Shown: positions 22,655 to 43,886 of the stretch, in pieces
Layout: each line of letters begins with the position of its first letter
Position numbering within the stretch: position 1 is the first letter of the stretch
From: Streptococcus salivarius
Lineage (GTDB): Bacteria; Bacillota; Bacilli; Lactobacillales; Streptococcaceae
Length of the DNA: 64,000 nucleotides
Direction of reading: 5' to 3'
NCBI RefSeq assembly: GCF_002094975.1
Contig: NZ_CP015283.1
Coordinates: 1,721,501-1,785,500, forward strand
The notes under the pieces: generated by a model
What the model saw: the letters and a program-made list of their open reading frames with translations, nothing else
Told to the model about the DNA's origin: nothing
The model's database searches: none
Program-made: the position numbers and the translations under genes

Positions 22655-24115
22655 TTATTTTTCCTCCATCAATTTTTTGATAGCTTGAGAGGCGCTTTCT
22701 ACACTAGAATCATCCAGTTTCATCATGTAGAGACTAGAATTTGGCATAGCATAAGAGGTCAATTGTCCAGTTGAACCTGTACCTGTTACTGCTTGAGAAG
22801 CCACCGTAAATTTAGAACCTGAATCAAGTTGTGTATTGGCCAAAGCATTAATGGTATCTAAAGACATATTCGTTTGAACAGAGTCTTGAAGATTGTTAAC
22901 AATTGAAGTAAAGTTTGATACTGATTTTAGTGAAGCTAACTTGTTTACAATCGCAGAAATCACTTTCTCTTGGTTCTTACCACGGTCATTGTCTCCTCCA
23001 TCCAAACTATAACGCTCACGAACAAAGCCAAGGGCTTGTTCAGAATTCATTTGGATATCTCCAACTGGGAAATCAAACTTCCCGTGAAGACTCGTGAAGG
23101 CTTGATCATTATGAACTGTCACACCACCAAGTTGGTCAATCAACTTAAGGAAAGATGTGAAGTTAATACGTGCATAGTAATCAATCTTAATGCCATAAAG
23201 ATTTTCCAGAGTTTTTTCAGATGTTTCAACGCCATAAATACCTGCGTGGGTTAATTTATCATACTGGTCTGCCCCTCCATCAGGAATCTTAACGTATGCA
23301 TCACGTGGAGTAGTCGTCAAGAGAATCTTATGTGTGTTCATGTTAACGGTCATAATGATATTGACATCTGAACGTGACACTGTTGAAATTGAACCGTAGG
23401 TATCAATACCACTAATATAAATATTGAAGACTTTTGAATCTACTTGTTTTGCAGAGTTGTTATTCTTCTTTTTAATTTTATAAGTATAGATTGTTTTTAG
23501 ATTTGAAGAATAGTTACTATCGACAGACTCTAGTAGGCTAGCATAAGAGCCACTCAAGACCATAGCTTTAGATTTGCCAGACTTAAGATTGTCATATGCT
23601 TCTTGATATGAAGCAACATCATCAACTTTAACATCAACCTTTTTGTCTTTCTTTAGAGCAGACATCAAGGTGTCGACATTGTTCTTATCAACCTTAGTAG
23701 GTGCCTGTACGGTAGTAAGCTGATTCACATCTTTGATGTCACTATCCTTAGGAACAACAATGCTCATTTCAACTTCTGAAAATGCTGCCGTTTGATTCAT
23801 ACGGTTAGTGATATCAATCATTTGTTTAAAACCAAAGACACCGACCAAAGAAATAAGTGAAAAAACTACTAAAATAATAGTAGTTACTAGCGTTGATTTT
23901 TTAGCTTTCTGAAGGAAGATGCTAATGGCAAGAACTACCAATAAACCAATAGTGATAATAATGTTCAAAAACCTAAATGATAGGAAATTATAATTGAACA
24001 TAATGAATAACAAAAATGCTACTAAAACAGTATACAGAATAGTCAACCCGATGTTAACCATTCCCCACATTTTTTTACCCGTTCGTTTCTGCTTACGATT
24101 CGTACGCGAACTCAT
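22655..24115 (-). CDS. epsA: LytR-CpsA-Psr family protein
   Basis: A 486-residue membrane protein and first gene of the eps operon. A basic N-terminus (SSRTNRKQKRTGKKMWG) is followed by three helices (about 18-100), then an accessory domain (about 110-215), and the LCP domain with NIYISGIDTYGS, DVNIIMTVNMNTHKILLTTT, PRDAYVKIPDGG and HAGIYGVETSEKTLENLYG. The arginines of the NDRGKNQEK region fit pyrophosphate binding. LCP proteins move undecaprenyl-linked polymers to peptidoglycan; CpsA-type members have also been described as transcription factors. Promoter elements lie 44 bp upstream. Confidence 0.93.
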   Translation of the reverse strand: MSSRTNRKQKRTGKKMWGMVNIGLTILYTVLVAFLLFIMFNYNFLSFRFLNIIITIGLLVVLAISIFLQKAKKSTLVTTIILVVFSLISLVGVFGFKQMIDITNRMNQTAAFSEVEMSIVVPKDSDIKDVNQLTTVQAPTKVDKNNVDTLMSALKKDKKVDVKVDDVASYQEAYDNLKSGKSKAMVLSGSYASLLESVDSNYSSNLKTIYTYKIKKKNNNSAKQVDSKVFNIYISGIDTYGSISTVSRSDVNIIMTVNMNTHKILLTTTPRDAYVKIPDGGADQYDKLTHAGIYGVETSEKTLENLYGIKIDYYARINFTSFLKLIDQLGGVTVHNDQAFTSLHGKFDFPVGDIQMNSEQALGFVRERYSLDGGDNDRGKNQEKVISAIVNKLASLKSVSNFTSIVNNLQDSVQTNMSLDTINALANTQLDSGSKFTVASQAVTGTGSTGQLTSYAMPNSSLYMMKLDDSSVESASQAIKKLMEEK

Positions 24116-24158
24116 ATAAAATGCTCCTAAATATTAAAATTAGATATTTCCCACAGTA

Positions 24159-24187
24159 ATTATAACATTACTATAACTTTATTTCAA
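24159..24187 (-). promoter_or_regulatory. Promoter of the eps operon
   Basis: On the minus strand TTGAAA (24182-24187), 17 bases, then TATAAT (24159-24164), with TG one base before the -10 hexamer (extended -10). The IS110 left end begins about 150 bp upstream, so the core promoter is intact. Confidence 0.8.
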
Positions 24188-24367
24188 TTGTCATTCTTTT
24201 TAAAAAAGAAGAAACCGTATTCAATGAGGGTATTGAGCTTTTATTATCTACCTTTTTTTGTTATTTTATAAGCTTTTTTTCACATTTTTAAAATTTAATT
24301 TTGAATTGTCAGTTAATTGTTATAATTTTTCCATCAAAAACTCTAAGCAGGCTTAGCCTGCTAACTC

Positions 24368-24396
24368 ATGACAGAAAAGAAAGTTCGGCTTATAAT
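24368..24396 (+). promoter_or_regulatory. Promoter inside the IS110 left end
   Basis: ATGACA (24368-24373), 17-base spacer, TATAAT (24391-24396). The decayed inverted copy keeps ATGATA, a 17-base spacer and TATAAT at the same place. Transcription would begin near 24403, about 160 bases before the recombinase start. Confidence 0.6.
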
Positions 24397-24402
24397 GAAG
24401 GT

Positions 24403-24560
24403 GAACAATACCAATCCGTTGTCTTTAATAGGGCTTTGCCTAGCCTGTATCAAAAACTGGATGAACAAGAGTCATGAGATAACTCGAATATGCCTTGAGC
24501 ATGAAAATAAAATTACTAATAGCCTCTTGTTCTATTGTTCAATAGTTAACAGGAGGTTTT
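24403..24560 (+). ncRNA. Candidate IS110 bridge RNA (seekRNA)
   Basis: In the IS110 group a structured RNA from the left non-coding end guides the recombinase by pairing with target and donor DNA. This stretch has the expected position, length (about 155 nt) and its own promoter. GAACAAGAG (24463-24471) pairs perfectly with CTCTTGTTC (24524-24532), closing a 52-base loop. The decayed copy keeps the stem as GGACAAG/CTTGTTC with one G-U pair while its loop sequence differs, as expected for guide loops. A 14-base palindrome CTATTGTTCAATAG (24532-24545) is identical in both copies. I did not identify the guide segments. It could instead simply be a leader. Confidence 0.5.
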
Positions 24561-24564
24561 TGTA

Positions 24565-25732
24565 ATGGAAGTTATGATTGAAACTTGTTGTGGAATTGAT
24601 GTCCACCAAAAGTCTATCGTTTGTTGTATTCTAGATGGTCCACTAGAAAGCAATAAACCTAAAAAGATTCAGAAAAAATTTGGTACAACAACTATAGCTC
24701 TCCAAAACGCCTTAGATTGGTTATTGGAAAATCACGTCACACATGTCTTTTTTGAAAGCACTGGCCAATATTGGGTACCACTCTTTAATATATTCTCAGA
24801 CTCAGAACTCAATTTGATATTAGCTAACCCCCAACATATTAAGAATGTGCCTGGTCGAAAAACAGACATGAAAGATGCCGAATGGATTGCACAGCTCGGA
24901 CGTTGTGGACTTATTGAGCCATCTTACATTCCAAGCCCTGAAGTGATGCAGTTACGTTTACTCACTCGTAGGTTACGTTCTTACAAACAACGTCAAACTC
25001 AAATAAAGAATGAGATTCATAACCTCTTACAACGTGCTAATATCAAACTAACCAGCTATCTTTCTGATATCTTCTCTAAGACAGGACAGTCTCTTTTAAC
25101 GCTCTTTATCAATGGGGAACTCATTGATTATGACAATGTGACAGCTTGTATTCACAAGCATGTCAAAGCAAGTCCCGAAGAATTAATGGAGGCCATGAAT
25201 GGGAAGTTGTCACTGGAGGATCGATTTCTCTTGGACCAAAGCCTAGAAGAATATCAATTGTATCAAAAACTCATGAACAATTTAAGGAGTGAAATAATAG
25301 CTTATATCGAAAAGGAGTTTCCCTGAAGAAAATAGATTACTTCAAATGATTCCTGGTGTGAGTGAAACTTGTGCAGCCACTATTTTAGCTGAGATTGGAC
25401 CAGATGTGAAGGCTTTTCAATCAGACGCACACTTAGCTTCTTGGGCTGGGCTCTGCCCAGGATCTTATGAAAGTGCTGGCATTAAAAAATCCTCACATAT
25501 CACGCAAGGAAATCGATATATCAAGCAGGCTTTGACCATGTCGGGATTGATTGCGGCTCACTCTAAAGACAATGCGTTTTCATCTTTTTATAGCAAAATT
25601 TCCCAAAGAGGAAGTAAGATGAAAGCCGTCATTGCTTGCGCACATAAGCTACTTCGTATCATTTACAAAATTCTCGCAACACACCAAGAATACGACAAAG
25701 AAAAAGTGCTAGGACTGAGGCAACAGTTCTAA
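24565..25732 (+). CDS. IS110-family recombinase (transposase), two frames joined by a probable +1 frameshift
   Basis: The first frame (24565-25326, 253 residues) holds the RuvC-like DEDD catalytic domain: Asp 12 in CGIDVHQKS, Glu 64 in FFESTGQYW, and Asp 101/Asp 104 in KTDMKDAEW. The second frame (to 25732) holds the Tnp_20 domain, with MIPGVSETCAATILAEIG, the segment LASWAGLCPGSYESAG with candidate catalytic serines, and TQGNRYIKQAL. The first frame ends AAGGAG-TTT-CCC-TGA (25312-25326). A +1 slip at CCC to CCT continues as PEENRLLQMIPGV and gives one protein of about 388 residues, close to the family norm. AGGAGG lies eight bases before the ATG. No other disabling lesion is seen. A simple one-base deletion is the alternative. 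Confidence 0.85.
25312..25326 (+). promoter_or_regulatory. RF2-like +1 recoding site in the IS110 recombinase
   Basis: AAGGAG (25312-25317), TTT spacer, CCC slippery codon (25321-25323), TGA (25324-25326). The layout equals that of the prfB site in this window (GGGAGG, TCT, CTT, TGA), including the three-base gap between internal Shine-Dalgarno and slippery codon. The base after TGA is A rather than the C of prfB. Confidence 0.65.
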
Positions 25733-25763
25733 CACCAAAAATTTAAAAAATCTCAATTACAGT

Positions 25764-25795
25764 ATAGCACAAGAAGAGTTTTTTGCGCTATTTTT
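25764..25795 (+). terminator. Stem-loop and T-run after the IS110 recombinase
   Basis: ATAGC-A-CAA pairs with TTG-C-GCTAT across a 10-base loop with one A/C mismatch, followed by five T. It lies 32 bp past the recombinase stop, within the likely right end. Confidence 0.5.
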
Positions 25796-25869
25796 AATGT
25801 TTTTTTCAAATAAAAGCTCGCGAAACTTGACTTTCTAAAATCCAAGATAAGGCCCCTTTTTTTATAACT

Positions 25870-25993
25870 AGGGTCATCATTTCAAACTTTTTCGAGGTTT
25901 GTTCGTATATATCTGAACATCTATAATACAACGAATAATAGATTATCGGTGAATATCAATAACACAATATTTTTCAATCATAACTTCTCCCAT
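25870..25993 (-). pseudogene. IS110 recombinase N-terminal fragment
   Basis: The ATG at 25993 opens MGEVMIEKYCVIDIH, matching MEVMIETCCGIDVH of the intact recombinase. A TAA follows where the intact copy has QKS, and the degraded match continues as SIIRCIID and NKPRKS before fading. The rest of the gene is missing. The catalytic Asp of the first motif is still present. Confidence 0.7.
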
Positions 25994-26190
25994 AATAAAA
26001 AACCTCCCACTACTATTGAACAATAGAACAAGAGGTTGATTGTAAGATATTTTCTGACTAAATTTCTTGTCCATCCATTTTTTGTACAAGCTAGCAAAGT
26101 CCTCCCTACTATGGGCCAAAAATTTATATTGTTCACCTTAATTATAAGAAGGACAAGCTTCTCTATCATGAGTTAGCTGACTGAATAAGC
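25870..26190 (-). mobile_element. Decayed inverted IS110 copy (left end plus start of recombinase)
   Basis: Read on the minus strand this matches 24362 onward of the intact element: CTAACTCATGA, the TATAAT promoter, GTGAACAATA, the conserved CTCTTGTTCTATTGTTCAAT segment, a GGGAGG ribosome site and the recombinase start. Similarity fades after about 40 codons. The two copies face each other. 25800-25870 between them shows nothing I recognise. Confidence 0.75.
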
Positions 26191-26530
26191 ATAGGATTCT
26201 ATACCTAGTCAACAATTAGCTTTTTATACCATGGTCTTAACTACTTTAGTTTTTCAATTGGCTCAAACATCTATACTGTAACTCGTTTAGATTTTCTTAT
26301 CATTGCAGTATAAGCTTCAATGCATAACTGTATAGTATTCGTTTTACACCTTCAGAACAACATAAACTGAAAATTGTATAATAAGATAAATATTAGAAAA
26401 CAATATTTGTCCTTATTCTGATTAACTAAAAGCCTTAAAGTTTCTATCCAATTTTGAACACGTTTAGGATATTCAGTTTGATGACAGAATAAAGCTTACT
26501 TGGCACTCCCTGAATCAATGACTAAAAAAA
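26191..26530. other. Intergenic region without a recognised gene
   Basis: About 340 bp of AT-rich DNA between the decayed IS copy and the uracil-DNA glycosylase gene. I see no open frame with a ribosome site, no strong terminator and no repeat. It may be old mobile-element debris or former target DNA. Confidence 0.5.
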
Positions 26531-42787: not shown

Positions 42788-43886
42788 CTATTCTTCCATA
42801 CGCCACTTGAGGTAGGCATCGATGAAGCCTTCAACATCTCCATCCATTACCTTATCAACCTGGGCAACTTCATAGCCTGTACGGTGATCTTTAACCATGG
42901 TATATGGCGTGAAAACGTATGAGCGAATTTGACTTCCCCAAGTGATTTCTTTCTTATCACCCTTCAAAGCATTCACTTCTTCTGCTTTCTTTTCTTGCTC
43001 CATTTGATAGAGTTTAGCTTGAAGCATTTTCATCGCACGGTCGCGGTTCCCATATTGTGTACGGTCAACCGTTGAAGCTACAACAATACCAGTTGGAATA
43101 TGGGTCAAACGCACACCTGTAGAAACCTTGTTGACGTTCTGACCACCAGCACCACCTGAACGAAATGTATCCATCTTGATATCATCATCACGAATTTCAA
43201 CTTCAATGGTATCATCCAATTCAGGCATAACTTCCACAGATGTAAATGAGGTATGACGACGTTTGGCAGAGTCAAATGGTGAAATACGAACCAAACGGTG
43301 GACACCCATTTCTGATTTGAGGAAACCATAAGCATTAGGTCCTTCAAAAGCAAGGGTTACAGATTTGATTCCAGCTTCATCACCAGCCTGATAATCCAAA
43401 GTCTCAACCTTGAAACCTTTGGCATTTCCATAACGTTGGTACATACGGAGCAACATATCAGCCCAGTCCTGAGCTTCTGTACCACCAGATCCTGGGTGAA
43501 TTTCCAGAATGGCATTGTTATGGTCATATGGTTCAGACAAGAGCAGTGTCATCTCGTAACTTGTCATAATCTTATCAAGTTTTTCGAGCGTTTCTTCCAG
43601 CTCTTCTTGAACACTATCATCTTCTTCCAACATTTCTAAATAAAGCTCTGTTTCATCAGAGAGTTCTTGCATATTGTTGAAAGTTTCGTATTTCATTTTG
43701 AGCTCATTTAACTCTTGTGAAGTTTTTTGAGCTGCAATATTATCATTCCAAAAATCTGGCTCAGTCATTCGGTTTTCAAGGAGCGCAATGTCCTCTTCCA
43801 AACGATCTAAGTCAAAGAGACCTCCCGAAGCTCACGAGCTTCTCTTGATTTTCAGAGATTTTTTGGCGAATTTCTGCCACTTCCAT
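42788..43886 (-). CDS. prfB: Peptide chain release factor 2 with programmed +1 frameshift
   Basis: RF2 recognises UGA and UAA. The start is ATG 43886 ([20 protein letters not shown]). After codon 24 the frame hits TGA (43812-43814). The +1 frame continues [20 protein letters not shown] to the stop at 42788, giving about 365 residues. GGGAGG-TCT-CTT-TGA-C is the classic RF2 autoregulatory site: low RF2 lets the ribosome slip, full RF2 stops. The anticodon-like tripeptide is in [15 protein letters not shown] (SPF) and the peptidyl-hydrolysis motif is [17 protein letters not shown] (GGQ). Annotation that begins after the frameshift would miss the N-terminus. Confidence 0.97.
43812..43826 (-). 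promoter_or_regulatory. prfB programmed +1 frameshift site
   Basis: Minus strand GGGAGG (43821-43826), TCT (43818-43820), slippery CTT (43815-43817), TGA (43812-43814), then C. The internal Shine-Dalgarno stands three bases from the slippery codon. Confidence 0.96.

Follow-up and report, generated by a model that had tools for sequence, protein, structure and literature searches.

A conserved site for probable +1 ribosomal frameshifting in the two-frame recombinase gene of a streptococcal IS110-family element

Recombinases of the IS110 family are usually encoded by one open frame, although this trait is not strictly defining. The structurally described members IS621 and ISCro4 (PDB 8wt6, 8wt9, 9t56) are single chains of 326-341 residues with RuvC, coiled-coil and Tnp parts, DEDD acidic residues plus a serine, and a long non-coding left end. 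In the IS621 study (PMC11208158), the RuvC domain covers residues 1-122, the coiled coil 123-188 and the Tnp domain, which contains S241, residues 189-326; the coiled coil mediates dimers while Tnp domains recognise the guide RNA. Such RNA-guided enzymes are reported to be under study as programmable recombination tools.

Frame changes between an upstream and a catalytic part, which limit the enzyme and whose short product can regulate, are described for families IS1, IS3, IS5 and IS630. Those reported for IS1 and IS3 are -1 ribosomal shifts and those for IS630-type elements transcriptional realignments, all in DDE enzymes unrelated to IS110 recombinases. According to a review, +1 ribosomal shifting had not been identified in IS elements. 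ISCaa8 and ISCaa13 (family IS5, Amoebophilus) were listed in 2011 with two ORFs offset by +1 (PMC3196728), so that ORFs offset in this way already have a precedent among IS elements; they belong to another family, however, and the two IS110 elements of the same table have one ORF each. The locus presented here resembles IS621 and ISCro4 in domains, catalytic residues and non-coding left end, and differs from them in having two frames, with a conserved shift site where the coiled coil gives way to the Tnp domain.

The window is a stretch of 64,000 nucleotides from Streptococcus salivarius, to which all positions refer. On its plus strand lies an IS110-family element of ~1480 bp (24336-25815, left end uncertain by a few bases), the edges of which were placed from copies with unrelated flanks (left AAAAACTCTAAGC, right TTTCAAATAAAA). 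ORF1, in the zero frame (24565-25326), encodes 253 aa comprising the RuvC-like DEDD domain and the coiled coil and ends at TGA; profile searches matched it to PF01548 DEDD_Tnp_IS110 (E 9.8e-27) and also to NF033542. ORF2, in the +1 frame (25325-25732, 135 codons and a stop codon at 25730-25732), encodes the Tnp domain and matched PF02371 Transposase_20 (E 1.7e-19). The frames meet at AAGGAGTTTCCCTGA, the break AAGGAG-TTT-CCC-TGA at 25312-25326, found once in the window, on the plus strand, with the position and motif reported in the initial annotation. It is composed of an internal Shine-Dalgarno AAGGAG (25312-25317, AAAGGAG if counted from 25311), a spacer of three nt, TTT or TTC (25318-25320), which is the sole codon of the shift site that varies, the candidate slip site CCC-T (25321-25324; CCC to CCT, +1), of which CCC is fixed in five divergent lineages, and the zero-frame UGA (25324-25326), which is TGA in every two-frame copy found by homology. 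In the window, 85 frames reach 100 codons or more from stop to stop; only one of these ends in CCC-TGA, and it is ORF1.

Reading CCC-T as one step gave a fused product of 388 residues, equal in length to single-frame relatives (P0031, P0032, P0034 and P0036 among them), and the expectation that a +1 slip restores a protein of normal size, about 388 residues, was borne out. The +1 product also agreed with single-frame relatives at the FPEE junction. A -2 shift was discarded, as it would leave one residue extra relative to the 388-aa relatives. Read-through of UGA without a shift was rejected as well: the third zero-frame codon past UGA is again a stop, so that read-through alone yields no enzyme.

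Taken from sequence, it is highly probable that the recombinase of this recently mobile streptococcal IS110 element is expressed by programmed +1 ribosomal frameshifting. The majority of ribosomes would terminate at the UGA that follows 253 codons, and their product would be a RuvC/coiled-coil protein without the catalytic serine. With UGA waiting in the A site, the internal Shine-Dalgarno, three nt ahead of CCC, would pair with 16S rRNA and the peptidyl-tRNA-Pro would slip from CCC to CCU; the +1 frame would then add the Tnp domain and give the 388-residue RNA-guided recombinase. The frame break would limit the amount of full enzyme, and the short product, which retains the dimerising part, may damp transposition. 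The 3' end of 16S rRNA in the same genome is CCTCCTTTCT, so that AAAGGAG, complementary over seven bases, can pair with it over this length. Among 59 tRNA genes found there (150 of 170 candidates scored), one was a tRNA-Pro, with anticodon UGG. Section 36 of a review (PMC5009743) states that in +1 frameshifting the Shine-Dalgarno lies three nt from the shift site. At the prfB stop, CCC is reported to belong to the next most slippery codons (PMC10885494), and CCC-U displaces tRNA-Pro in ribosome structures, as described in PMC7577736 for tRNA-Pro-CGG, not UGG. Folding of one sequence revealed no downstream stimulatory RNA structure beyond shuffles.

The window also holds prfB (42788-43801, minus strand; TIGR00020, 495 bits), whose shift site GGGAGG-TCT-CTT-TGA-C lies at 43826-43812 on the minus strand. 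As previously proposed, the order of parts is the same in the two genes and the distance from Shine-Dalgarno to slip codon is three nt in both, a spacing that agrees with the printed one. They thus share an internal Shine-Dalgarno, the 3-nt gap, a slip codon, UGA and the +1 direction. The IS110 site differs by CCC instead of CTT and lacks the prfB-type C, a weak-termination context, after the stop codon; the following base is A in the window copy, as had been pointed out, and A or G among relatives. Furthermore, the IS110 shift would occur after 253 codons, that of prfB near the start, and one gene belongs to a mobile element while the other is a host sensor. The Shine-Dalgarno of prfB in this genome, GGGAGG, departs from the AGGGGG consensus printed for bacteria. 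CCC-UGA had been described as an established +1 site of phage genes, with which its use in the tail gene tsh of Listeria phages PSA, A118 and A500 agrees: the same CCC_UGA +1 site is reported there in a low-GC Gram-positive host, with AAA ahead of the printed site and in a structural phage gene.

We infer both the slip and a possible response to RF2, by which transposition might be tied to release-factor supply. RF2-sensing translational control, in which the default 253-aa product and the 388-aa enzyme combine into inactive mixed dimers and slow termination at UGA shifts the balance towards full enzyme, so that transposition follows the translation state of the host, is a tentative proposal that we regard as rather doubtful. 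Frameshifting may instead be real and act as a throttle fixed at a low level, insensitive to RF2; to this we give slightly less than an even chance. In IS elements, frameshifting generally occurs at a low level and keeps transposition down, and the A or G after UGA fits such a throttle; against it speak the layout, like that of an RF2 sensor, and UGA as the stop of every two-frame copy that homology searches found.

The shift site was conserved well beyond the window. In the own genome (2.33 Mb), AAGGAG-TTY-CCC-TGA was present in all seven copies of the element; AAGGAGNNNCCCTGA occurred seven times, always within copies of this IS110 element, and its reversed control pattern did not occur in these 2.33 Mb, so that the association exceeds chance. 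A DNA match to the gene was obtained in 70 of 284 Streptococcus genomes. The junction was spanned in 17 Streptococcus genomes, by count over the listed matches, and the exact motif was displayed by 14 of them (G000, G079, G082, G091, G096, G101, G137, G140, G172, G208, G228, G255, G269 and G277); two had one open frame (G031, G232) and one was damaged at the junction (G231). The single-frame sisters had no AAGGAG at the junction position. Both frames were otherwise intact in 18 distinct sequences among 41 locus readings, in which the same copy was often fetched repeatedly; these came from S. salivarius, S. mitis and similar strains, S. loxodontisalivarius, S. ovuberis and S. varani. AAGGAGNNNCCCTGA was matched in 35 of the 284 Streptococcus genomes, in 21 of them only outside the element; the sites outside were rejected as shift sites, their two frames never being both long and open. 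The narrow pattern AAGGAGTTYCCCTGARGAA, which would miss other forms of the site, was searched across the order (395 genomes, 80 genera) and occurred in five genomes, every one of them Streptococcus. A search of phage records returned no match, and viral contigs yielded one relative, at 37%.

These distributions bear on another explanation, namely that the break is an ordinary frameshift mutation of a copy in decay or an error of sequencing. Such decay does exist: one copy of the own genome (L007, 88% identical) has a further stop in ORF2, other species have decayed copies, and in several of the 14 motif-bearing genomes copies are decayed or cut elsewhere (G082, G101, G172, G208, G255 and G269). 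That 14 of 17 genomes, in lineages only 77-84% identical in nucleotides, have the break at one and the same codon is nevertheless hard to reconcile with it, as are purifying selection behind the break, the fixed codons of the site and recent mobility. Mutation or error is thus very improbable for the gene and is refuted for the clade by conservation; the window gene is not a decayed copy.

Protein clusters gave a concordant picture, all counts resting on the best 120 of 1927 clusters. At 85% identity or above, 21 of 24 listed clusters stopped at the junction (P0090, one of these, a few residues ahead of it), one ran on and two were partial. The initial annotation would have called the break a simple deletion if most homologues were single-frame; among close relatives the opposite was found, both in these clusters and in the 14 of 17 genomes. 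At 75-85% identity, 19 of 32 listed clusters stopped, nine ran on and four were of other kinds, and below 75%, 39 of 64 ran on, 23 stopped and two were of other kinds. Distant IS110 matches in the genus were mostly open frames of about 390-456 codons, and the view that IS110 recombinases are normally one frame thus holds for the more distant relatives. The 23 stopping clusters below 75% were 220-aa forms (within P0053-P0094) in which ~33 residues of ORF1 are missing, an internal deletion being seen in P0053 and P0081. Fourteen of these 23 end in KDFP instead of KEFP; since the Glu of the motif is replaced by Asp, the internal Shine-Dalgarno is probably weaker there. Other departures were P0020 (KKFP), P0023 (KELP), P0028 (KEFS) and P0029 (KGFT); like KDFP, these come from metagenomic clusters and were judged on protein endings. 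P0003 and P0017 read as one frame, yet were placed inside the two-frame group. A 47-row tree built on ORF1 did not reject that the two-frame group, both included, arose once (AU p 0.489), a value compatible with a single origin but no proof of it.

Selection was estimated on both halves. Divergent copies displayed dN/dS of 0.03-0.08 for ORF1, with dS above 1, and of 0.08-0.13 for ORF2, with dS of 0.65-1.27. Such low ratios in ORF2 at high synonymous divergence indicate that the half behind the break is still under purifying selection as protein. In all, 25 of 28 pairs were computed (c10/c11, c10/c13 and c11/c13 missing) and one ORF1 pair was without dS (saturated). Two groups were kept out of the quoted ranges: pairs with c11, whose ORF2 frame is longer with a different end (ORF2 dN/dS 0.15-0.19), and near-identical pairs, namely c06/c07 and c06/c13 (0.06-0.13) and c07/c13 (0.81 and 1.21 on very few changes). 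Across five divergent lineages, 285 columns had one invariant amino acid with degenerate codons, and 76 of them kept a single codon. The AAG, GAG and CCC codons of the site were among these 76, and TGA was fixed also. GAG is a rare choice in the gene (29 of the 129 Glu codons), as is CCC (12 of the 72 Pro codons), and neither had another invariant column in the five lineages; the Phe codon between them varies (TTT/TTC).

The own genome contained six copies, including that of the window, at 99.2-100% identity, besides the one at 88%. Four plasmid records of S. salivarius contained copies at 99.4-99.7% identity to the element, one match being partial, and the six own and two plasmid copies differed pairwise by 1-11 changes over 1470 columns, with differing flanks. 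No single-frame copy of the subfamily was found in the own genome, where the other three ORF2-like matches were 34-36% identical. Six near-identical copies at different sites, together with the lack of a single-frame subfamily copy, indicate that the element moved recently with its frame broken. The simplest reading would be that the two-frame gene itself makes the enzyme; a past supply of enzyme in trans is conceivable. The second contig of the own genome carries a remnant of the element's left end (G000:C2:58769-59082; 98%, 314 bases). Two-piece matches consisting of gene start and gene end (e.g. query 1-231 with 1133-1168) were obtained in Streptococcus genomes such as G092, G097, G049 and G173 and suggest short, internally deleted derivatives.

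The only serious rival is separate translation of ORF2, by internal initiation or termination-reinitiation, whereby the recombinase would consist of two polypeptides. Annotation does list two proteins (WP_002886742.1 and WP_045768432.1, 253 and 128 aa), many predicted ORF2 proteins are 147 aa and 128 aa long, and a GTG at +33 of ORF2 was present in seven of seven printed sequence types. This GTG, however, codes for a conserved Val inside the Tnp domain. The annotated ATG (25346) corresponds to ACN in other lineages and lies 28 nt behind AAGGAG; an ATG/GTG at -36 is missing in S. varani, and the GTG of S. salivarius meets a stop two codons on. Over the 18 nt upstream that were inspected, none of the printed candidate starts had a Shine-Dalgarno at normal distance, and we consider separate translation improbable. 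Transcriptional slippage, which restores the frame in part of the mRNA of IS630-type elements and is invoked for +1 shifts in other IS, would typically act on a long homopolymer; none is present here, the longest single-base run near the break being four (AAAA) and the TTT and CCC runs three, which leaves this explanation with hardly any credibility.

In the preferred reading by frameshifting, the shift would divide the enzyme at a domain border. D12, E64 and D104 were invariant and D101 nearly so among 40 rows, the DEDD acidic residues thus being present. Ser303 of the fused protein was likewise invariant in the 40 rows and, by count along the alignment and comparison with PMC11208158, is probably the catalytic serine, counterpart of S241 of IS621. 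ORF2 was similar to IS621 residues 197-320 (chain 8wt6_A), while a PDB sequence search with ORF1 alone gave no match at 1e-3. The structure predicted for the fused protein from 40 rows had a mean pLDDT of 84.9 and a pTM of 0.76, and its best 11 PDB matches were IS621 and ISCro4 chains. A helix is predicted at 217-251, followed by another at 253-260, with the shift at 253/254, which in the model places it at the coiled-coil/Tnp border; Ser303 falls in a low-confidence loop. By analogy with IS621, the 253-aa product would keep the dimerising part and lose the serine and Tnp contacts, which makes it a plausible inhibitor.

The enzyme family and the kind of signal are both known, their combination appearing to be new. 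Searches of the literature on IS frameshifting, S. salivarius IS110 and IS621 gave no case of IS110 frameshifting; a listing of this cluster elsewhere, as in ISfinder or the GeneTack database or supplement, is conceivable. The GeneTack paper had no occurrence of IS110 or IS116, and the main texts of two IS110 guide-RNA papers had no word starting with 'frame'. The site is a strongly conserved candidate for +1 control, the first that we found for family IS110. It would mark a natural split or throttle point of the enzyme, separating the RuvC/coiled-coil region from the Tnp region with its serine, and frameshifting would explain why elements of this kind are annotated as two transposase fragments.

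The non-coding right end (25733-25815) was common to copies and relatives. The non-coding left end (24336-24564, 229 nt) was conserved in single-frame relatives as well and, inferred from IS621, is probably the guide (bridge) RNA region. The 238 nt ending at 24564 folded better than 200 of 200 shuffles (z -3.3); Rfam gave no match in 24000-26500. A hairpin at the start of ORF1 (24523-24556, plus strand; arms CCTCTTGTT and AACAGGAGG) pairs an upstream CCTCTTG with the start-site Shine-Dalgarno AGGAGG. It was paired in nine of ten aligned relatives, single-frame ones included, and lost in Fundicoccus; at one pair, G-C was changed to A-T on both sides. This hairpin could restrain translation of the recombinase as a second and older control.

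The capsule gene cpsA (start 24115, minus strand) begins ~220 bases from the left end of the element. Drug-resistance models gave no hit at curated cut-off among the neighbours scanned. At 25880-26182, 65 bases past the right end, lies an inverted IS110 left end with gene start, about 73-75% similar, which by its sequence appears to be the remnant of a related element in opposite orientation; it precedes a gene of the uracil-DNA-glycosylase superfamily. Copies L003, L006, L020 and L130 were found, by eye and with no control, directly beside palindromes resembling terminator hairpins, which may be a preferred target of the element.
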